From Chrysochromulina parva (taxonomy: Eukaryota; Haptophyta; Prymnesiales; Chrysochromulinaceae), in assembly GCA_002887195.1 (NCBI GenBank), contig PJAB01001744.1:1-12495 (forward strand): a stretch of DNA of 12,495 nt, in the 5' to 3' direction. The position numbers were made by a program, and so were the translations under genes. The notes below the pieces were generated by a model. That model ran no database searches. It worked only from the letters and a program-made list of their open reading frames with translations, and was not told where the DNA came from. Positions 960 through 12,292 of this stretch are shown here, in pieces; the first letter of the stretch is position 1; each line of letters begins with the position of its first letter.

Positions 960-3900
960 ATGCATTCCCGTCGTGCGGCTGGCTTCCTGCAACCAAACTT
1001 GGCGGGCGAGCTTCGTCCCGCTAAAGAAGTCCGCAAAAAAGTCCGATTGCCGCCATTGCGGCTCGAGATGCTCGACTCGCTCTTGAGCTGGCTGATCCTG
1101 AAGAACCTCCGACCCTTTGTCGAGGACACGGTCGACCTCGGATTGCACCTGCGCAATGGCTGCCTGCTGCTCGAGGACGTCACCCTCTCGCCTACGCTGC
1201 TCGCCAGCCTAGCGCTGCCGCTCACCATCAAGGCGGTGAGGATCGCGCGGCTTGAGATCCTGCTTCCGTGGCGCCAGTCGGGCAGCAGCCTGCCACTTGT
1301 GGTGGTCGTCGACGGTGTACGTGCAATCGTAGGGCCGCTCGACGAGTGCAGCGCGCGTGACCGGCTCGGTGGCTGGCTTGGTAAGCGCAAGCAGAAGCGC
1401 CTACTCGCATCGAGCGGGGCCGAGTCGCCAGCGGTCGAAGCGCCTGTCGCAGGCGATCCGGCGAGTACCTCCAGCAGCTGGCAGACGCGGACGCTCGTCG
1501 ACGCGCTGCTGCGCGATCTGCAAGTGCATCTGAGGAACCTGGTCATCTGCTTCGAGTCCGCGCCCGGCGGCGTCGCCGTGAGCGCGACGCTGAGCAGCCT
1601 GCAGCTGCGCGCGCAGCGGCGGCAGGCGCTGCCGCGCCTGCTCTCACTCTGCCTCGGCCGCGGAGCCGAGCTCAAGGAGCATTCGGCCGAGGTGCATCTA
1701 GAGCTCACAGTGGGCATCCAGTGGCACCCGAACGGACTTGGGGACCTGCCGCCGCCCGTCGGTGCGGCGGCGTCGCGGCCGCCAGATCCGGAGCTCGCTC
1801 CGCCAGATCTGGATCTCGCTCCGCCAGATCTGCGGCCGCCGGCGGAGGCTCGAGCGCGTGCTCCATCCGCCGCCGCTCCGGCCGCTGCCGCCGACTCGAG
1901 CGGCCCGCCTGCCAAATTAGGGTCGGTGCCGCCTGCCAAATTAGGGTCGGTGCCTCTTCTCGAGCCATGGCGTAGCGTGGCCGACGTAACCGTTCGCATC
2001 GAGTGGCCCTCGGCCGAGGCGCCCACGACGGCGCCCACGCTGCACCTCGACGGGAGCGTGCAGCTCGAGCCGCTGCGCGTGCGCATGAGTGCTTCACAGC
2101 TCGAGTCCCTCAGCACCTTCGCGCGGCGCACAGCACAGCTCGCGAGCGGGAGCCATCGATGGAGCGTCCCTGGCGCGACTTGCCGCACCGCGCCGCGCCC
2201 TGCCAGTCCGCGCCCTGTCATGCCGGTAGGCGCAGCGCCGTATTGGGCATGGTGGCGGTACGCGACCGGCGCCGTACTGGGCGACCTGCTGGAGGAGCGG
2301 AGGCGCCAGTCGTGGCAGTGGCTGCGCGCGCGCGTCGCGCTGCAGCGAGCGTACGAAGCGGCGTGGACCGTTCACATTCACAGCATCAGCCCCGCCGCCG
2401 CGGCGGCGCTCGAGACGGCGCTCCCGCCTCGGCAGGCGGCGCTCGAGACGGCGCCGCTGCTCGACGCGAGGATGCAGGCGGCCGTTGCCGTTGCCATCGA
2501 CGCCGCCGCGCTCGCGGACGAGTTCGCGGCACGCGCATCCGACCGAGACTCAACGAGATTCACCGAGATGCGACGAGATGCGACGAAATCGGCACGCGCA
2601 CCCGCTGTGCCGCTGATGGCTGCCGCCTCCTCCACGCCCGCCGTGCCGACGGGCGCCGTGCCGAGCGCCATGCCGACGGGCGCCACCTCCGCGGCCGAGG
2701 CGCTCGCGTGGCTCGAGAGCACGCTTGACGTCGAGACCGTCGAGCGCTGTCGTGAGCGCGCCCGGCAGCGACTCGCGCTCGGGACAGCGCGCCCAGCGCA
2801 CGGGCGCTCACGACAGCGCTCGGGCTCCGTCCCTACCAACGCCGACGCCACCCGCGCCATCGCCCGCGGAGCGCCCACGACAGCGCCCGGTGCCACGGCC
2901 GCTGCCGACCCTGCCGACCCTGCCGGTGCCCAGCACGGCGCCCCCGCAGCCGAGCGGTTTCGTCTCGGAGCGCCCACGACAGCGCCTGTCGACCCTGCCG
3001 GTGCCCAGCACGGCGCCCCCGCAGCCGAGCGGTTTCGTCTCGAAGCAGCGCTGCACGTGCATGCGGCCGGTATGGTGGTGCGGCTCGGCCTCCCCGTGGG
3101 CGCCGTCGTGGGCGCCAAGGGCGGGCGGGCGGGCAGCGCTGCGGCGCGCGGCCGCCTATGGGGCACGAGCGCCGTCGCGAGCGCTGTGGGGTCGGCGGTA
3201 CCGGTACCGGTAGGCGCTGAGCTGACTGTGAATGAGGAGCTGACTGTGAATGAGCTGACTTTGATCCTCGACGAGTTCAGCATGGATCTACGTCACAGCC
3301 TCGGCCTCGGACGCGGGGGCGGCGGCGGCGGTGGCGGCGGCGGTGGCGGTGGTGGTGGTGGTGGTGGTGGTGTTGGTGGTGGCGGCAGCGGTGGTGGTGG
3401 TGGCGGAGGCGTCGGCGGCGTGCGGGCCGCTCTCGACTTCACTGCCTCGCTGCTCTCACTTCGCGTCCTCCATTGGCGTCCGGCCGCACCTTCATGGATG
3501 AGCACAGCCGGTGGTGCAGGTGGTGCAGGCGGCGGCGGCACGCGCGGCGGCGGCGGAAGCGGCGGCGCGAGCGGCGGCGGTGGCGGTGGCGGCGGCGGCG
3601 GCGGTGCCGGTGGCGGCGGCGATGCAGCCGGGCCAGCGAGTGGGTGGCATGCCGTGAACGTGGTGTGCTGCGGAGGCGCGGAGGAGAGCGGTGTGAACAC
3701 GACAACTTCAGAAGTATCCGGTGTGAACACGACGACTTCGAGCGGGCCCTCGCCCACGACGGCGCCCGTGCTGTCGGCGGCCGCCGCAGCGGCACGGCGG
3801 CGCCCTTTGTGCAGCTTCACGTGTCACTTCGACATGCGGGCTGATCGAAGCTCCCCACTGGTCGCCGGGATCGGGCTCCATGTCGGGCGTCCGGTCACCC

Positions 3901-4727
3901 TCTGTGCGGACCTTTCCCTGCTACGGGATGTAGCCAGCCTCGTCGCGCTCGCGACGGCGCCCATCGGCGGCACCCCCTTCTCGCTCGCCCCCGGTGCTGC
4001 GGCGGCCGCCGAGGCTGCCGCTGACCTCGCGAACGGGCTGGCAGACCTGGTGCCCACTACGGCGCTCCGACGAGGCGAGGGCGAGGGCGGCATCAGCGGT
4101 GGCATCGGTATCAACGGCGGCAGCAGTGGCAGCAGTGGCAGCTGCGGTAGCGGTGCATTCACCCGCCCATCGCCTCAGCTGAGCCTGCAGTTCGATGCCA
4201 GCGAGCCGCTCATCGCGATGGCCAGCGCCCTCGAGCGCCCCGACCTCTCGGTGCCGATTGCAAGACTCATCAGGCTGCATGCGCATGTGACCAACGCAGC
4301 GCCCAGCGCAGCGCCCGATCCCGTGGGCGCCGTGACGGGCGCCCTCGGCTCTGGGATGAACGTCGCTCAGCACGGCGCTCCGCCCGGCGCTCCCCACGCA
4401 GCTCCGAGCAGCGGCGTGTCCGGACGGTGGAGGGTTTGGGCGCACGTGCAGCTCGGTGCCTCGTTCGCATCGCAGCGGCGCCTGCTGCCGCTGCTGGTCA
4501 GCCCGCCCCCGCCCCTGAACTTGACGAGCGCTCAGGACGGCGGCGCCGACGATGGGCGTGATGAGGCAGAACCGGCGGCGGTGGCGGCGGCGATGGCGAA
4601 TGAGGAGCGGCCGTCTTCCTGTGAACGATCGAGGGCTGTGAACGTCGAGGAGCGGCCGTCTGCCTTGGCAGAGCGACCCATCGGCAGGCCCACCGGCCGG
4701 CGCTCGCCCGGCCTGAGCAGCGGCGAG

Positions 4728-4758
<31 letters not shown>

Positions 4759-7700
4759 CGGACTCCGACCTTTCGGACGAGTCGGTGCCGGTGGCGCAGG
4801 TCGTCATCACGCGCGATGAGCTCCTGGCGCTTGGCGTGGACGTGCTCAACACAGCGCGCACCGGTGCGCCCAGGGAGGAGCTCGACGCGCGTGGCAAGCT
4901 GTCCCACGCGCTGTCCCGCACGAGCTCTTCTCCAACGGTCCTTTTGCCGTCTCCGGAGGAGGAGTTGACGCAGCCCGAGCTCGCCCACTGGGGCCGCGCC
5001 GCTACTGCACCGGATGCGCGCGGAGACGAGGCGCGCAGTGGAGGTGGGCGACTCGCGAGCCTGCATCCTAATGAAGGAGGCACTCATCCTAATGAAGGAG
5101 GCACTCATCCTAATGAAGGAGGCACTCATCCTAATGGAGGAGGGCGACTCACGAATCTGGGCGACATGCAGGCCACTTGGCGATCGCACACGCTGCACAC
5201 TGGCGGGAGCGGCGGCACCGGCGGGAGCAGCGGCGACACGACCAGCTCGCGTAGCTTCTCATTGCTTGCCGGTTCACATTCACAGCCGAGTCACATTCAC
5301 AGCTCGCGCAGCTTCTCATTGCTAGAGCGTGGCCTTGAGCTCGCGATGGCGGGCCATATCGAGCTTGCCATACGGCTCATCATACCGCCTCCTTCCCCAT
5401 CCGAGAGTTCGCCGGTTCACATTCACAGCCTCTCCATCGACGAGCGACCGCTGCCGCCGCCGGTGAGCCAAGCGGCGTTGCTCGCCTGCGCTGAAGAGGT
5501 CCTCAGCCCATGTACACTGAGCGCCGAAGTGAGCGTCCCCGAGAGCTTGCTGCATCAGGCGGCGCGGCCGGCAGCGCCACCGCCCACTTCTGAAGCGCCA
5601 CCATCGAGCCGCGTCGACGCCGCCACCGCCGCCGCCGCCACTGGTAGCCTCGGCCACCCGCCCGTGTCGCATTGCCTCCGCCTGCACGGCACATTGCCCT
5701 CGATCAGTCTGCATGTGTGGCCGGCGCTCCTCACCGAGTCATTCTCCCTTGTGCGCTTCGTCCTCCCAGCGGTGTCCGAGGCCTTGCGCCCGCTCACGCG
5801 AGTCTCGGCCGACCAGAGGACCAAAGCGGCGGGTGGCGTGGGAGGCGACGGGTGGCGAGAGGGGGCGACGGGCGGCGTGGGAGGCGACGCCAACGCGAGA
5901 CGCGATCCCATCGTTCACAGCCTTCGATCGTTCACAGCCCTCGCTGCCAACGCCAGACGCGATCCCATCGGCAGCGAGGGCTGTGAACGATCGAGGGCTG
6001 TGAACGATCGCGGATCGACAGAGTTTGGAACGATGGCCGCCGCCGCGCCGCTTGCGGCGGTGACGCTGCAGCTGCACCTGCCGTCGGTCGAGCTGCACGT
6101 GCACGAGCAGCGCCCTCGGCCAGGCGACCCCGCCGACCGTTCACATTCACAGCAGCGCCCTCGGCCAGGCGACCCCGCCGACCGTTCACATTCACAGCAG
6201 CGCCCTCGGCCAGGCGACCCCGCCGACCTGCTGCTTGCCAAGCTCACGGGCCTCACCGTCTGCTGCGACGCCGACCCAACGGCGGGCGTCGATGCGGACG
6301 TCTACCTTGGCAGCCTCTCAGTCCTCGACGCGCGGCGCCACGTGCCCGAGGCGCTCGCGCTCATCGTGTCGCTGCGCGCGGAGGCGGCCATGTGCCCGCC
6401 GCCGCAGCTGAGCGCGTCCATCGTACCGGTAGACTTGCGGCCAGCCGGTGCGACACGCGAGCGGGCTCGTGCCGCTGTGGGGAGAGCGCCTGTGGGGAAA
6501 GCGGCCCAAAACCCGAGCGCCGCTGTGGGGAGAGCGCCTGTGGGGAAAGCGGCCCAAAACCCGAGCGCCGCTGTGGGGAGAGCGCCTGTGGGGAAAGCGT
6601 CCCAAAACCCGAGCGCGTCGAAGCCTCGTGGCGCTCAACACAGCGCTCCCGGAAGCTTCGTGGAAGCTTCATGGAAGCTTCCTCGCCACCTCGTCGCCAT
6701 CCCCGGCGCCACCGCCTCTGTCGACGCCCCCCCCAAGCCGCTGCTGCGTGCTCTCGTGCGCCCTCCCGATGCGCACGGCACCCTCGCCGTCCGTCTCGTG
6801 GCCGTGTGCCAGGCGCTCGGCATGCAATGGAACCCAGGGCTGATTGCCGCGCTCATCAACGTGCTCGTCGACCTACAACGGCACGCCCGGCCGCCTCCGT
6901 CCCCGCTCTCGCCCTCTGCCGCGGGTGCGCCGCCGCGAGCGCCCGCGCAGACGACGGCGAGCGAGGGCGTGCCGGCGTCTTCTTCCTCTGCGCCGCTGCG
7001 TCTCGAGTTCGAGCTTGAGGCGACCGTAGGCTCGACGAGTATCTCGCTCAATCTCGAGGAGCGAGCTCGCCATCTCGAGAAGCGAGCGCCCGAGGGCGCG
7101 CCGCTCCATCAGCTGGTGCTCATCCTCGCTCGGGACGTGGGCGTCTCACTCGCGCTCGCTCAGGACGGCGCGCTCAGGATGGCACTCGGCGCGACGCTCG
7201 GGAGCATCCGCATGCCGAGCCACTCGCCACCGGCGACGACGTCCTTTGAGGTGGTGCGCCCCATCGATCGCGAGGACGCCGCGGTGGTCGTCGAGGTGCT
7301 CAAGAACGAGGCGACCAAGCACGTGCCCGACATCACCGTCCAGTCACGGCCAGTCAACTTCGAATTCCGCAACCAGACGCTGCTCCAGGCTGTCGACTAC
7401 ATGGACCGCGGCATCCTTGCCTTATTCACGCCGCTCCGGCCTCCTGGCGGCAAGTCGTCGGTGCAGCCGCTCTGGCGCGTGCGCGCGCCCTCCGCCACCA
7501 TGCGAATCCCGACCGATCACGAAGGCGTCCTCGAGTTCCTCGTCGGCCCCGTGTCGGTGGGTTGCGAGGTGCTCTTCCCGAGAGGCATCCAGACACAGAA
7601 GATTGTGCTCAGGGCGCAGCGCGTCTCTGCGTACGTGCTGCGCCCGCCCAAGCAGCCGACGCAGCCGACTGCGGCGGAGGCGGTCGCCGCCTCGTCCGCC

Positions 7701-9295
7701 GCCTCGGATGAGGCCGCGCAGGTGCGCTGTGAATGTGAACTGGTGCGCTCGCAGCTGCCTTTGCTCGAAGAGATGTCCAACGTGCAGCTGAATATCATCG
7801 TGCCGCTGCGCAAGGTGGACGGTGCCAAGCAGGGCCTTCCGTTCATGACACTCGAGGTGCTCCCCACAGCGCCCCATAGCGCCCCACAGCTCCCCACAGC
7901 GCCCCACAGCGCCCCACAGCGCCCCACAGCGCCCTTCATGACGCTCGATGTGCCCGATGTCCCCGGTGATGACCTCTGATGGCCTCTTGATGACCTGTGA
8001 TGGCCTCCTGATCGCCTCCCTCATCAGGTGCCCGATGTGGGGAGCACGGTGCACGTGGGTTTGCAGCCAGAGGACTTTCGAACGATCATGGCGCTCTGGT
8101 TCGACAACTTCTCGCGCAACCCCCCACCCGCCCCGCCAGACCCTGCCAGGCTGGCGCTGCCTCGGAACTGCAACGGGATGGCCGTGTCACTCAACCTGGA
8201 GCAGACTGTCCTTTGGCTGCATCCGACGGAGGCGCAGCCAGCGTTCCTGCGCGTCGAGATCAACGAGCTGCGCCTCGACGTCGCGAAGACCCTCGCGCTG
8301 TGCACGCACGTGAGTGTCGAGGTCGGCTCCCTCATTAGGGTGATTGCCTCCCTCATCAGGATGATTGCCTCCCTCATCAGGTGAGTGTCGAGGTCGGCTC
8401 GCTGGCCGTGCACGGCCGTTGGCAGAGCGAGCCGCAGCAGCCGCCCGTGTGGTTACAGCTTTTGGGCCCGCCGCTCCCGCCCCCTTCGCTTGCTGCTATG
8501 CGACGAGGAGCTGCAGGCATGTTTGGACAGGGCAAGCCACCACCCAAGTGGAAAGGGTATAGCCCCGAGGACGACGTGTCGGCCGATGCGCCACCACCAC
8601 GTGGCACGCCACCTGCCAGGGCGGCGCCCGTTACGGCGCCGGCAACGCCGCCCGCCACGCCGCCCGCCATGCCGCCCAGCACGGCGCCCGACGCGGCGCC
8701 CGACACGGCGCCCGTCTCGAATCCGATCGTGTGCCGCATCAAGATCGGGGAGCCGGCGGGGCTGCCCAACGAGATCCACGTGGACGTCGGCCGGCAGGCG
8801 CTCACGCCGGCGCCCATCCCAGTGCTCCTGCTCGCGGACTTCACGCTGAATGTGCTCGCGGGCCTGCTGGGTGTGATGCCCAAGACGACGGCGGCCGCGG
8901 CGGCGGGCGGGACGGCCGAGATGCATCTGGCCGTCCAGATCGCGCAGCTGCAGCTCTGCATTCCACAGCCCATGCTCTGTGAACAGCCCATGCTCTGGGA
9001 AGAGACGAAGCCGAGCGCCGCCGGTCCGCCCGGCACGGCGCCCGGCGCGACGCCCGGCACGGCGCCCGGCACGGCGCCCGGCGCGACGCATGCCATCGGC
9101 GCCATCGGGGACGCATTGCTCGAGGGTGCGATGGAGCTCGCCCGCGTGCCCCCGTTTTGGTGCCTGTCGGACGAGGCCGCGCGGCTCGTGCGCCCAAGGA
9201 TGCTCGTCCTTCAACTCTCGTCGTCAGTTGAGGTGCAGAAGAGCAAGGACCAAGGGCAACGGCTTGCGCCCGTCACGGCGCCCTCGTTCGATGGC

Positions 9296-9358
<63 letters not shown>

Positions 9359-12292
9359 GGTGGCGGCGGCAGCAGCAGCGTGCCCGGTGTCGGAGCGAGC
9401 TGTGGGGAAACATGGAGCCTCATACAACACGTGATGGTGCATGCAAGCGTCGAGTACACTTGCATGTGTGTCGGCCACTACACCGAGCCAGCGAAACGGT
9501 TCGGCGTGCCCGACACGACGCCCGTCGGATCAGGGGGGTGGCGCCCGACATGGCGCTCCGGGGGGCACGCGCCGCCCACCCATGGCGACCGCGCAAGTGC
9601 GCTGCTGGCTCAGGTGCGCGAGCAGCCGATCGAGTCTCCCTCATTAGGATGAGTGCCTCCCTCATTAGGATGAGTGCCTCCCTCATTAGGATGAGTGCCT
9701 CCTTCATTAGGATGAGTGCCTCCCTCATTAGGATGAGTGCCTCCCTCATTAGGATGAGTGCCCCCCTCATCAGGTGCGCGTGCAGCCGACCGAGCTGGAC
9801 GACCAGCCGTGCGTCCTCGAGCGGCTTGTCGCCCTCTTCGACTTGACCAAGCGCCCGAGGGCTGGTGGCGCCGTCTCGGGCGCCGACGGCTCGGGCGGAG
9901 GAGCGCCCAGCGCGACGCAGCAGCAGCTCTCGATCCTCTTTCAAGATCCGATCTGCATCTCGATCTCCGCCGCCCAGATCGTCTTCGCTCTCGCTGTGGG
10001 CGCCCAGTACACGCTAGCGGCTCTCGCGCTCCCGATCACGGTGCCGCCCGTACTTCTCGCGCCGCCGCCGGACAAGAGCTCGGACAGCAGCTTGGACAAG
10101 AGCTTGGACAAGAGCTTGGACAGGGGCGCGTCGGCCGAGGAGGTGGCGAGCTCGGCCCTCATCAGGATGATTGCCTCCCTCATTAGGATGATTGCCTCCC
10201 TCATCAGGATGATTGCCTCCCTCATCAGGATGATTGCCTCCCTCATTAGGATGATTGCCTCCCTCATTAGGATGATTGCCTCCCTCATCAGGATGATTGC
10301 CTCCCTCATCAGGATGATTGCCTCCCTCATCAGGATGATTGCCTCCCTCATCAGGTGGCGAGCTCGGCCCTCATCATGGTCAGTTGCCCGTATGTGCAGC
10401 TGACCATCTTGTCGGCGCAAGTGCCCACGCTGCCCTTTGTGCAGCTGATCGTGGGCGATGAGGAGGCGCCGCTCTCAGTCACCATCGAGAAGCATGCGGG
10501 CACGCGCCTGAACGCGACGGAGCTGTCCATGCGCCTCTCTGCACGCTTCTACAACGCGTCGCTCTTCGCATGGGAGCCCATCGTCGAGCCCTTCGTGTCG
10601 ACCCTCTCGCTGCGCTCTGGCGGCATGCCCGACGTCGCGGTGCATCTCCACATCGGCGACACGCTCAATCTCAACGTGTCCGACGGCATGCTCCGCGCGC
10701 TCCAGGCCAACCTGCGCACAGGCCACCAGACGTTTGAGAAGCAGCTGGCGCACACGCTGCGGTACGCGACGGCCGCGTGGGATGGCGTCGGCGCCTCGGC
10801 CGGCGGAGGCGGGCAAGCGCAGCCTCACGTGCCTCCTCGCGTCGAGTTGGGCGTCGTGTCCAAGCCGCGCCGCACCGAGGGCGTCGTGTTGGGCGAGCCT
10901 CGGCGTCATAGGGAGTTGCGTGACTCGCGCTCGCCCTCTTCGCCTCCGGCGCCGGACTTGAGCGCTTCGTCTGCCTCGGTGCCCAACGGCTCGCCAGCCT
11001 CGGTGCCCAGCGGCCCAAGCGTCGTGTTGGGCGAGCCTCTCCAACGGCCGCCCCTGCCCGGCAGCGCCGTGCTGGGCGGCCCGACGGCTCGCGTGGCCGA
11101 GGCGCAGCCTGCGCCAGGCGCGGTGCCTTCGTTTCTGACCAACGAGACCGGCGGCATGATACGTTGTTGGGTGGCGCAGCGCGTCGAGCCTGACGGCGGT
11201 GGCAGCGGTCATCATTCGCCCATGACGACGCTCGGCCCACCGGGCGTCGTGCCGGGCGTCGTCGGCGGCAGCAGCCACGTGCCCCCCGAGCACTGCCAGC
11301 TCGCGCTGCCCGCGGGTGCGACGAAGCTGCTCCCGTTTTGGGACGCGGACGCGCGCTCGTTGCAGCGCGACTGGCACGAGGACGGCCCGCGTGAGCTGTG
11401 CGTGCAGCTCGAGGGCGACTGGATGCCCCTTGTCGGCATCATCGTCAGCCAGCCAAACACCACCGTCCTACCGCTCCAGCGCTCGGCGAGCGGCCGGACA
11501 TGTGACTGGGAGCGAGAGAAGCCGTGGACGCCGGGGACGGGCAGAGGGCCACCTCGCGCTCCTCGGTGCGTCGTGTGCGAGGTGGTGCTGCACGAGCGTG
11601 GCACGCGCCTCACAATCCGCTCGATGCTCACGCTGATCAATGGCACCTCCCGCACACTCATCGCGGACCTCGCGTCGGACCTCGCGCCGCTCCGTCATCT
11701 CGGGATCCTCGCGCCGGCCGACGTCCTCCCCATCCCATCAGGCTGCCTCGAGGGCGGATTGCGCCTCATCGACGCTGGGGTGCAGGGCGACGCCGAGGCG
11801 CAGCGCGCGGCGCTCGACGCGGCCGACGTGGCAGAAGCCTTTGGCGAGGTGAGGAACGTCATGTGGCTCTCGCCGCTCACGTGCCCGTACGACGGCAAGC
11901 CGACGGCGGAGGAGGAGGCCACGTGGCGCTCCACGTTTGAACGGCCGGACGCTGAGCACCTGGTGCGCTACTACCCGTCGTGCACGCTTGGAGAGAAGAG
12001 CGGCGACCTCTACCTGGGCTCGTTCTCGATGCACTTCAAGCCCAAGGATGGAGCCCTCTCCATGGCGAGTAAGGCGAACCGGCTGCTCAAGTGGTACAGC
12101 CTCGAATGGCACCGCGTGCTCACGATCATCAAGAAGAGCGGCAAGCTCTCGGGCTACAAGGGTTTCGTCATCCTGCTCGCGCCCGCCGACCGCGCCGGCG
12201 CCGGCGCCAGCGCAGCGGCGGCGGCGCCAGCGACGGCGCCGCCGGCGGGCCGCCGCGGCGGCGCCGACAAGGGTGACTCCATCACACTCTGA
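960..12292 (+). CDS. VPS13: VPS13-type bridge-like lipid-transfer protein (chorein family), 5 exons seen, probably incomplete at 3' end
   Basis: Proposed exons are 960-7949, 8028-8309, 8381-9613, 9774-10142 and 10355 to 12272 or 12292 (about 3600 codons). VPS13 proteins are rod-like bridges that move glycerolipids between membranes at contact sites. Evidence: the segment from 1068 starts MLDSLLSWLILKNLRPFVED and continues LHLRNGCLLLEDVTL, matching the chorein N-terminus; LVDALLRDLQVHLRNLVICF fits the next VPS13_N strand; WAWWRYATGAVLGDLLEERR (about residue 430) and LAWLESTLDVETVERCRERA (about residue 583) fit the conserved helical WWRY and LE..L/D/E segments; the last exon has VAB/SHR-BD-like repeats (RSMLTLINGTSRTLIADL). 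Usual VPS13 starts correspond to the ATG at 1068, so the 36 residues from 960 may be untranslated. Long Gly, Ala/Pro and acidic inserts and many in-frame duplications enlarge it. No VPS13 C-terminal (ATG2_C-like, PH) region is seen, so the stop at 12290-12292 may be intronic. Exact paralogue (A/C/D type or other) is not determined. Confidence 0.87.
1068..1614 (+). other. Chorein N-terminal domain of the VPS13 protein
   Basis: Read from the ATG at 1068, the order is an initial amphipathic helix (MLDSLLSWLILKNLRPFVED), a strand LHLRNGCLLLEDVTL, the helix/strand LALPLTIKAVRIARLEILLP ending in PW, then LVVVVDGVRAIVGP, and after a charged linker LLRDLQVHLRNLVICFES. This order (L-x-K/R-x-G-x-L-x-L-x-D/N-V-x-L, then P-x-x-I/V-K-x-x-x-I-x-x-L-x-x-x-I-P-W, then V-x-x-D-G-V/L-x-x-I/L-V-x-P) is the signature of the chorein_N cap that opens VPS13 and ATG2 proteins and contacts the donor membrane. 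It begins at or within one residue of the start in known family members, which favours 1068 as the real initiator. Confidence 0.88.
1906..1953 (+). repeat. 24-bp perfect tandem duplication in exon 1
   Basis: CGCCTGCCAAATTAGGGTCG and four more bases occur at 1906-1929 and again at 1930-1953, giving PPAKLGSV twice. It lies in a Pro/Ala-rich linker that also has APPDL repeats (about 1782-1840). Confidence 0.92.
2741..2822. repeat. 19-bp perfect inverted repeat in exon 1
   Basis: CGAGCGCTGTCGTGAGCGC at 2741-2759 is the exact reverse complement of 2804-2822, with a 44-bp loop. The left arm falls in the VPS13 helical motif ETVERCRERARQR, so the right arm is probably the copied one. Confidence 0.88.
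2868..3042 (+). repeat. 75-bp duplication in exon 1
   Basis: A 52-bp block (GACCCTGCCGGTGCCCAGCA...) is at 2916-2967 and 2991-3042 with only in-frame difference (offset 75 bp). GGAGCGCCCACGACAGCGCC precedes the second block (2967-2986) and also occurs at 2868-2887. Protein: DPAGAQHGAPAAERFRL twice. Confidence 0.9.
3309..3422 (+). repeat. Polyglycine (GGC/GGT)n tract 1
   Basis: GGC/GGT repeats encode an almost pure glycine run with rare V and S, between DLRHSLGLGR and VRAALDF. It is a trinucleotide expansion that keeps the frame and is probably a flexible loop leaving the lipid-transfer rod. Confidence 0.95.
3511..3633 (+). repeat. Glycine-rich tract 2
   Basis: GGT/GGC repeats encode GGAGGAGGGG, then GGGGSGGASGGGG and more glycine, ending before DAAG. 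Same kind of expansion as tract 1, about 90 bp downstream. Confidence 0.93.
3690..3733 (+). repeat. 30-bp offset direct repeat with GGTGTGAACACGAC
   Basis: GGTGTGAACACGAC is at 3690-3703 and 3720-3733 and gives GVNTTTS twice, separated by EVS. It is another exonic duplication with a length divisible by three and a TGTGAAC core. Confidence 0.85.
4602..4661 (+). repeat. 15-bp direct repeat around a TGTGAAC...TGTGAAC insert in exon 1
   Basis: GAGGAGCGGCCGTCT occurs at 4602-4616 and 4647-4661 (offset 45 bp). Between them lies an insert whose core CTGTGAACGATCGAGG...CTGTGAACG (4619-4644) is the same as the right arm of the palindrome at 5980-6005. Protein: EERPS, insert SCERSRAVNV, EERPS. Confidence 0.9.
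4725..4762 (+). repeat. GAGGAC/GACGAG acidic tract
   Basis: GAGGACGAGG... hexanucleotide-like repeats code for EEDEDEDEDEDAD. The acidic stretch precedes LSDESVPVAQVVITRDELL and is probably disordered. Confidence 0.9.
5064..5140 (-). repeat. Same 21-bp minisatellite in reverse orientation inside exon 1
   Basis: Reading plus strand, units CCTAATGAAGGAGGCACTCA(T) recur with a 21-bp period and translate as HPNEGGT repeats. The reverse complement is ATGAGTGCCTCCTTCATTAGG, the unit found in intron 3. The array is flanked by direct repeats (5045-5063 and 5141-5159, 15 of 19 matching, offset 96 bp), which show in protein as GGRLASL and GGRLTNL. The frame stays open, so here the element seems to be translated. 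Confidence 0.9.
5244..5323 (+). repeat. 23-bp direct repeat around GTTCACATTCACAG elements in exon 1
   Basis: AGCTCGCG(T/C)AGCTTCTCATTGCT is at 5244-5266 and 5301-5323 (22 of 23, offset 57 bp) and encodes SSRSFSLL both times. The insert holds GTTCACATTCACAG (5272-5285) and a variant GTCACATTCACAG (5290-5302). Confidence 0.9.
5889..6008. repeat. Long imperfect palindrome (39-bp arms, 21-bp loop) and overlapping direct repeat in exon 1
   Basis: Arms at 5910-5948 and 5970-6008 are reverse complements except for one T/G opposition (5923/5995), which can still pair as U-G in RNA. The inner 24 bp are perfect. The loop is 5949-5969. The left arm and loop also overlap a 25-bp direct repeat, 5889-5913 and 5946-5970 (24 of 25 matching, offset 57 bp), which reads as ANARRDPI twice. 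The arms are built from GTTCACAG...GTTCACAG motifs. The translation is open through it. Confidence 0.92.
6108..6228 (+). repeat. 31-bp direct repeat in three copies separated by GTTCACATTCACAG
   Basis: Copies at 6108-6138, 6153-6183 and 6198-6228 (CAGCGCCCTCGGCCAGGCGA and 11 more bases) alternate with GTTCACATTCACAG at 6139-6152 and 6184-6197, a 45-bp period. Protein: QRPRPGDPAD repeated, joined by RSHSQ. Confidence 0.95.
6471..6614 (+). repeat. 48-bp tandem repeat, three copies, in exon 1
   Basis: Units at 6471-6518, 6519-6566 and 6567-6614 begin GCCGCTGTGGGGAGAGCGCC and encode AAVGRAPVGKAAQNPS (the third has S for the second A of KAA). Near-perfect identity implies a recent, in-frame expansion. 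The basic, low-complexity peptide is probably a disordered loop. Confidence 0.95.
7842..7952 (+). repeat. CCCCACAGCG array between 18-bp direct repeats, directly before intron 1
   Basis: TTCATGACACTCGAGGTG (7842-7859) and TTCATGACGCTCGATGTG (7935-7952) are 16 of 18 identical with an offset of 93 bp, giving FMTLEV and FMTLDV. Between them about 75 bp of GCGCCCCACAG-type repeats encode PTAPHSAPQ units. The second flank overlaps the start of intron 1 (7950). Confidence 0.9.
7950..8027 (+). other. Intron 1 (78 bp), flanked by 11-bp direct repeat
   Basis: Exon 1 ends in MTLD (GAT at 7947-7949). The intron runs GTGCCCGATG... to CTCATCAG, and the next exon resumes VPDVGSTVHVGLQPEDF in the same frame. 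The in-frame stop met by reading on (TGA, 7977-7979) is inside it. GTGCCCGATGT occurs at the intron start (7950-7960) and again at the exon start (8028-8038). The body holds degenerate TGATGGCCTC-like repeats. A second possible donor at 7966 would break the downstream frame. Confidence 0.75.
8310..8380 (+). other. Intron 2 (71 bp), flanked by perfect 20-bp direct repeat
   Basis: Splicing CAC|GTGAGT to CTCATCAG|GTGAGT joins LRLDVAKTLALCTH to VSVEVGSLAVHGRW and moves from the frame of 8028 to that of 8381, as needed. GTGAGTGTCGAGGTCGGCTC is present at 8310-8329 and identically at 8381-8400, so the 5' splice site is a copy of the first bases of the next exon. About 2.5 copies of the 21-bp minisatellite fill the rest. 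Confidence 0.85.
9292..9371 (+). repeat. Polyglycine tract 3 in exon 3
   Basis: A GGC run interrupted by AGC and GGT codes for about 25 Gly with one Ser, followed by SSSVPG. It lies in the third exon between the QRLAPVTAPSFD and GASCGETWSL segments. Confidence 0.93.
9614..9773 (+). other. Intron 3 (160 bp), minisatellite body, flanked by 21-bp direct repeat
   Basis: Splicing CAG|GTGCGC to CTCATCAG|GTGCGC joins ALLAQ to VRVQPTELDDQPCVLERL and shifts from the frame of 8381 to that of 9774. The copy at 9614-9634 matches the exon start 9774-9794 at 19 of 21 positions. The in-frame stop of exon 3 read-through (TGA, 9650-9652) lies inside the intron. The body is six 21-bp minisatellite units. Confidence 0.87.
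9649..9774 (+). repeat. 21-bp minisatellite, 6 units, in intron 3
   Basis: Six head-to-tail units begin ATGAGTGCCTCC and end CATTAGG or, in the last unit, CATCAGG. The last G is the first base of the next exon. One unit has CCTTC in place of CCCTC and the last has CCCCCC in place of CCTCCC. Each unit is a pyrimidine tract plus AG, so each carries a possible 3' splice site. Confidence 0.95.
10072..10126 (+). repeat. 15-bp repeat encoding (S)LDKS in exon 4
   Basis: GACAAGAGCTTGGACAAGAG-type units (period 15 bp) encode DKSSDSSLDKSLDKSLDRG immediately before intron 4. The array is in frame. Confidence 0.88.
10143..10354 (+). other. Intron 4 (212 bp), minisatellite body, flanked by perfect 22-bp direct repeat
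   Basis: Splicing GAG|GTGGCG to CTCATCAG|GTGGCG joins ASAEE to VASSALIMVSCPYVQLTI and shifts from the frame of 9774 to that of 10355. The 22 bases at 10143-10164 and 10355-10376 (GTGGCGAGCTCGGCC... to CTCATCA) are identical. The body is nine 21-bp units. Read in the upstream frame it stays open (repeated MIASLIR), but the length is not a multiple of three, so retention would frameshift. Confidence 0.87.
10167..10355 (+). repeat. 21-bp minisatellite, 9 units, in intron 4
   Basis: Nine units (9 x 21 = 189 bp) begin ATGATTGCCTCC and end in CATTAGG (units 1, 4 and 5) or CATCAGG (units 2, 3 and 6-9). The only variable base is this T/C. The last G belongs to exon 5. The unit differs from that of intron 3 by ATT for AGT, so the two arrays are sub-families of one repeat. 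Confidence 0.95.
11284..12180 (+). other. VAB / SHR-BD-like region near the right end of the VPS13 protein
   Basis: Exon 5 encodes LPFWDADARSLQRDW, then GDWMPLVGIIV, CEVVLHERGTRLTIRSMLTL, INGTSRTLIADL, and later LGILAPADVLPIP followed by GGLRLI. The alternation of a short beta strand ending I-x-x-x-L-x-L-x-N with a later LPxP turn and a hydrophobic strand fits VAB repeats, in which one Asn per repeat is conserved (here the N of INGTS). In VPS13 proteins this domain binds proline-containing adaptors that place the protein on particular organelles. The segment KWYSLEWHRVLTIIKK further on is well conserved in appearance but I cannot assign it. The assignment rests on motif reading only. Confidence 0.6.

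Follow-up and report, generated by a model that had tools for sequence, protein, structure and literature searches.

How did the introns of one algal gene come to be bordered by a sequence that is also the start of the following exon? The question is raised by the window analysed here, a stretch of 12,495 nucleotides that makes up one entire contig (PJAB01001744.1) of the Chrysochromulina parva genome assembly (45.07 Mb, 2199 contigs, G+C content of 64% in a 200-kb sample). The 58 matches to light-harvesting proteins found in this genome indicate that the host alga is photosynthetic. The gene lies on the plus strand (exons 1 to 5, positions 1068 to 12272), with a frame that is still open where a fifth, putative intron begins. 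It is VPS13-like: the Pfam domain VPS13_N was matched at its start with an E value of 2.4e-9 and 36 bits, short of the curated cut-off of 80, and VPS13_M was matched in the same gene with an E value of 0.069. Removal of the four introns originally proposed left positions 960-12290 open over 3603 codons, or 3572 codons when intron 1 was started at position 7857. All four introns are in phase 0, and three of them (71, 160 and 212 bp) are not multiples of 3. The exons between 2391 and 6616 contain many in-frame tandem duplications (45 bp x 2.7, 48 bp x 3 and 21 bp x 3.8) as well as long polyglycine tracts, so local duplication seems to be very active in the C. parva genome. On the minus strand, an Armadillo-repeat gene (Pfam Arm, 1.7e-34) occupies positions 2-649; it is built from 123-bp (41-aa) tandem repeats that are nearly identical.

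The original prediction described four direct repeats flanking the introns, and base-by-base comparison confirmed them all: 7950-7960/8028-8038 for intron 1 (11 of 11 bases identical), 8310-8329/8381-8400 for intron 2 (20 of 20), 9614-9634/9774-9794 for intron 3 (19 of 21) and 10143-10164/10355-10376 for intron 4 (22 of 22). In all four cases, CTCATCAG is followed by the start of the next exon, a copy of which is found upstream, at GTG. The further claim that every intron starts with a copy of the next exon held for introns 2, 3 and 4, each of which is made of the duplication followed by an insert of a family that we call F1. Intron 2 (8310-8380) consists of the duplication at 8310-8329 and an insert at 8330-8380, intron 3 (9614-9773) of the duplication at 9614-9634 and an insert at 9635-9773, and intron 4 (10143-10354) of the duplication at 10143-10164 and an insert at 10165-10354; in intron 4, the final 9 bp of the target stretch are identical to the F1 unit. 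Beyond the four introns predicted, a putative fifth one of the same type starts at 12273 and would run off the contig end (12273-12495). It contains 2.9 copies of a 78-bp unit made of an exon-start copy and an F1 insert.

The claim did not hold for intron 1. Its 5' end is very probably at position 7857 (GAG/GTGCTC, the slash marking the splice junction) rather than at 7950, and the corrected intron (7857-8027) would hold two nested insertions, as judged from reading frames, homologous proteins and a second duplication. This duplication, TTCATGACxCTCGAxGTGC (7842-7860 and 7935-7953, 17 of 19 bases identical), brackets an array of the 10-bp unit CCCCACAGCG at 7862-7934, a minisatellite that by eye resembles an amplified piece of a second insert family, F2. 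With a start at 7857, the 11-bp copy at 7950-7960 would probably lie inside intron 1, where it is followed by an F1-type insert (7961-8027) ending in CTCATCAG. Two distant homologs, P0002 (LE-IPD) and P0004 (LE-ILP), are continuous across the array position and lack the array. Another homolog, P0003, covers 41% of the query and is 100% identical to it there; judged from the protein, its array is about 40 bp longer and its frame is shifted, which makes the array unlikely to be an exon. By itself, an 11-bp repeat is unremarkable within the window, since 4 of the 74 AG/G[TC] sites outside the introns also have an identical upstream stretch of at least 11 bp. One of these control copies is 60 bp long, and all four are probably exonic tandem arrays.

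F1 is a minisatellite ending in CTGATTGCCTCCCTCATCAG. Across the whole genome, the F1 end TTGCCTCCCTCATCAG was found 559 times before GT, 121 times before GC, 52 times before GA or GG and 135 times before A, C or T; one intron may contribute several copies to these counts, and some copies are array-internal units, for example the six followed by GGA in the window. The reversed TTGCCTCCCTCATCAG pattern, used as a control, gave 0 occurrences in the genome for each count; for the antisense F1 unit before GT, a slightly longer pattern was used and 5 occurrences were found. By eye, the ends of F1 (CTGAT...ATCAG) are inverted repeats, so that a branch-point-like motif and an AG are available on either strand. 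One insert, on the plus strand of locus L054 (274-348), is formed by an antisense F1 unit (ATGAGGGAGGCAATCAG).

The association between F1-type acceptors and duplications was analysed in an unselected sample of 20 evenly spaced 10-kb loci. A copy of the exon start with a score of at least 11 was present at 4 of 10 C[TC]C[AC]TCAG/G[TC] acceptors as compared to 107 of 3647 other AG/G[TC] sites (p = 1.5e-4), CACAG acceptors being excluded from both groups and at least one of the ten being an F2 acceptor. When only strict CTCATCAG acceptors were considered in these loci, the copy was found at 3 of 7. In 22 loci chosen for the presence of F1, it was found at 22 of 52 F1-type acceptors and at 98 of 794 other sites. 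The duplication was absent at the same threshold from 30 of the 52 F1-type acceptors in the selected loci and from 6 of the 10 in the random loci, which may be due to decay. Sites with a pyrimidine tract in the random loci had a copy in 5 of 97 cases when the tract was followed by AG and in 15 of 2692 cases with other dinucleotides (p = 4.7e-4); one of the five AG sites, in L035, resembles a coding repeat. Two scans of the random loci that ignored splice context gave no such signal: the first returned 774 direct repeats, 9 of them with AG/G[TC], and the second, sorted by start dinucleotide, found no enrichment of AG/GT (6 of 1193). These scans were probably swamped by coding tandem repeats, and a repeat scan became informative only when either an F1-type end or a pyrimidine tract was required.

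The second family, F2, is made of GCATGCAAGTGCTCACCACGGCGC, a pyrimidine tract and CCCACAG. It contains no minisatellite and often occurs as a single unit. This F2 core had 1669 matches in the genome with at most 2 mismatches, and the reversed-pattern control had 0. Among 27 F2-like matches in the fetched loci (at most 4 mismatches), 10 had a duplication scoring at least 7, nine of these scoring at least 13, and duplications of 33/33, 41/41 and 47/47 bases were among them; the 17 matches lacking a duplication include F2 copies in tandem and two or more look-alikes from coding sequence. The description of the intron body as a bare minisatellite therefore has to be amended, as F2 shows the same habit of duplication. 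A catalogue of 27 F1 and F2 sites in unrelated genes, all picked for having a duplication, gave lengths of 11-47 bp with a median of 23; an additional F2 site outside the catalogue has an 8-bp duplication, so that the overall range is 8-47 bp. Since two different insert families share this habit, the data suggest that the insertion process, and not the element, is the common factor. When a donor of the filler was sought for one F2 insertion, on the minus strand of L038, the 15-mer was found at two other places, apparently coding and with no F2 adjoining.

Two further observations concern F2. In L020, L026 and L038, its left end is often near CTTGCATGCAAG, a would-be perfect 12-base palindrome that by eye was exact in no copy seen. 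An F2-like unit followed by CACAG/GTGAG was also found at the end of a 4.5-kb contig filed as viral (L063:4487-4554); this contig is otherwise phage-like by the appearance of its open reading frames, and its end is probably chimeric.

Reading frames and domains were used to ask how these inserts sit in genes. The flanks were joined at 21 sites, and at all but 2 of these a frame stayed open for 15 codons on either side. Seven joined products, chosen from the 21 for their protein-like look, were scanned for domains. A known domain spans the junction in six of them (Ion_trans 6e-19, Filamin 1e-8, NHL 2e-8, UBX 1e-7, HEAT_Maestro_2 3e-19 and SbmA_BacA 2e-6) and none does in the seventh; phases 0, 1 and 2 are all represented among the scanned sites. 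From frames and domains only, we infer that the inserts are spliced as introns. The F1 ends before GT or GC and the F2 cores, the gene context of which was sampled, amount to similar introns at many unrelated positions, as in introners. Collectively, the recurrent inserts, the duplications in unrelated genes and the unselected sample support the original proposal of an introner-like insertion with flanking duplication.

The insertions had also been proposed to be recent. In agreement with this, introns 1, 2 and 4 are absent from the same positions in relatives, as judged from predicted proteins; orthologous introns at these positions, which the original proposal had named as counter-evidence, were thus not seen at that level. 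P0001, which is 81% identical, is uninterrupted at the position of intron 4; it is not a further copy in the C. parva genome, a search of which returned the window alone. P0002 is continuous at the positions of introns 1 and 2, and P0004 at that of intron 1. No homolog spans the position of intron 3, where P0005 has an identical 5' end (VREQPIESPSLG). Introns also seem to be present in relatives at positions where the window has none. P0001 terminates in ...HIGDDL, and P0006 and P0007 in ...SGIDDDL, at points where the window continues. The DDL-stop is the translation of GATGACCTCTGA, an F1-type stretch that also terminates the unspliced frame of the window, and the contigs of these three proteins would therefore be genomic rather than cDNA, with F1 introns of their own. 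Between VGLQ and LQPEDF, P0002 has about 43 additional in-frame residues, which are repetitive and look like a different unspliced intron at a position that is empty in the window.

The insert brings a pyrimidine tract, an AG at its end and a branch-point-like motif (which we take to be CTGAT in F1 and CTCAC in F2), and lies directly before a target stretch that is often duplicated on the other side of the insert. Because this stretch begins with GT (sometimes GC), its upstream copy can act as a 5' splice site; the coding sequence would be continuous again once the intron is spliced out. AG precedes the duplication at 6 of 22 sites as compared to 5.8% of GT sites in the sample, an excess for which selection of a 5' splice site alone could suffice. 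At the junction between the duplication and the insert, the last bases of the target match those that precede the insert start in other copies. The mean best match was 3.26 bases against 1.25 expected at random joins, a value reached in 0 of 2000 null draws, with 19 of the 28 junctions testable; these 28 rows are not all independent because some are secondary copies or share one locus. A shorter key made 25 of 28 junctions testable (3.12 against 1.70) and a longer one 11 of 28 (3.45 against 1.24). In window intron 4, the microhomology extends over 9 bases (CCCTCATCA). A match of ten bases (CATCACGGCG) to a later part of the insert itself is visible by eye in L025, where the computed value was 4.

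We consider it likely that these are introner-like insertions made by microhomology-primed copying at a staggered break, the duplication supplying the 5' splice site. A break in the target DNA would leave a stagger of about 10-50 nt between the ends. Through a few homologous bases, a free 3' end would pair with an existing F1 or F2 copy, either DNA or RNA, and copy it; the remaining end would then be joined, and filling in of the stagger would yield the duplication. Most landings in coding sequence would be purged, and the survivors would be those in which the duplication starts with GT and the insert ends with AG, allowing it to be spliced out. Afterwards, unequal exchange between the copies could multiply the unit made of copy and insert, and array slippage could alter the length of the insert. 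Tandem units of this kind were found in intron 5 and in L006, L010, L052 and L056, the pattern that would be expected of unequal exchange between both copies. Of the mechanisms weighed, copying from a resident cassette, primed by microhomology at a staggered break, is the most likely, and reverse transcription comes second.

In target-primed reverse transcription, a LINE-type enzyme would nick the exon and copy an excised intron RNA with CAG at its 3' end, leaving a duplication of variable length. The 3' end of the inserts is indeed sharp at CAG whereas their 5' starts are ragged, there is a strong sense bias beside GT, and the duplications are variable. Microhomology is found at the 5' junctions of LINE insertions as well, so a reverse transcriptase is compatible with the junction data. 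This explanation is nevertheless unlikely. The genome has reverse-transcriptase (RVT_1) matches, but just five of them, with E values between 3.8e-7 and 8.8e-6; no A-rich tail was seen on the inserts, and duplications of up to 47 bp exceed the usual length of L1 target duplications, which is 7-20 bp. Moreover, a terminal AG is missing from two insertions that apparently occupy the 5' end of existing introns, namely the array at 7862-7934 in the window, the duplication of which starts with TTCATGAC, and the F2 core of L020, the duplication of which starts with GTAG when extended leftwards by eye. Since these two lack a terminal AG, the AG end found elsewhere was probably selected and not built in.

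Tandem duplication alone is an improbable explanation, whether what was duplicated was an exon segment containing AGGT or the tail of an old intron together with the exon start. The arrays of exon start and insert listed above agree with it, as do the duplications in which the exons of the VPS13-like gene are rich. In the F1-selected loci, a TCAG stands before the 5' copy itself at 10 of the 22 sites; some of the set could therefore be no more than tandem duplications of an intron end and an exon start. However, the 5' copy does not lie behind an intron tail in 22 of the 28 junction rows (21 without a preceding TCAG, plus window intron 3, where TCAG is the end of the exon itself), the insert is found throughout the genome, and introns 1, 2 and 4 are missing from relatives at the protein level. 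Movement by a DDE transposase, as with the ordinary introners of Micromonas or Symbiodinium, is the least credible possibility and a very remote one, as the inserts are similar and high-copy but the duplication lengths vary too widely (11-47 bp, median 23 at the 27 catalogued sites, against 3-9 bp), no extended terminal inverted repeats were seen by eye (F1 has only CTGAT...ATCAG, F2 none) and the junctions show microhomology.

Microhomology-primed copying at a staggered break can be compared to several described routes of intron gain. In the accessible text of Gozashti et al. 2022 (PMC9860276), introners are similar introns found in many unrelated genes, which leave mRNA length mostly unchanged, and their hosts include the haptophyte alga Chrysochromulina sp.; duplications are 3-9 bp in earlier families and 4 bp in Chrysochromulina, where the element carries the 5' splice site instead. 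The introns described here are alike in being recurrent and similar, and the same division of splice sites is known in that work. They differ from those introners by duplications of 8-47 bp that vary within a family, by the minisatellite bodies of F1 and by junction microhomology. New introns of Daphnia pulex were attributed to the repair of staggered breaks (PMC4202315), with 33 repeats of 4-12 bp and repeated insertions at one site. There too, the adjacent exon end is repeated at the far end of the intron over a variable length, whereas here the repeats are longer and two high-copy families provide the fill; as we read the Daphnia model, its fill involves no high-copy family, and the F1 and F2 inserts do not fit it.

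Direct repeats of 4-30 bp at intron borders were explained by insertion at breaks by Rogers and Bendich 2025 (PMC11782384). Their survey covers 213 introns of all classes with repeats that are 71-100% alike, and its available text notes no recurrent family or empty sites. The introner elements of the aquatic protist Amoebophrya (PMC7789003) are also repeated introns in which direct repeats cover the splice sites; they differ by direct repeats of 3-5 nt, inverted repeats of 8-20 nt and non-canonical splice sites. In intron gain by tandem duplication of an AGGT segment, as covered by the excerpt of a review (PMC3443670), a duplicated exon segment gives the splice site and the intron body is the duplicate itself, whereas here the body is a sequence repeated genome-wide. 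Within the accessible literature, excluding preprints and most subscription journals, no report was found of introners whose duplications exceed about 10 bp or whose bodies are minisatellites, and the available text of the Chrysochromulina tobin and Phaeocystales papers held nothing on such introns. What is new here is the combination of high-copy families with long, variable duplications and microhomology; introners themselves are already known.

How thousands of introns arise simultaneously is an old question, and most of the cases described point to DNA transposons and short duplications. Because the long and often intact duplications of C. parva mark the target, the insert and both junctions, the mechanism becomes readable from sequence at the scale of a genome, and positions that differ between near relatives would allow a direct comparison of empty and filled alleles. 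We tentatively suggest, at somewhat less than even confidence, that mass intron gain in this alga may proceed by repair and not by transposition, through microhomology-primed copying of the F1 and F2 3'-splice-site cassettes, a route not previously described. The cell's own repair machinery would put 'half introns' into genes, and the target duplication would complete each of them.
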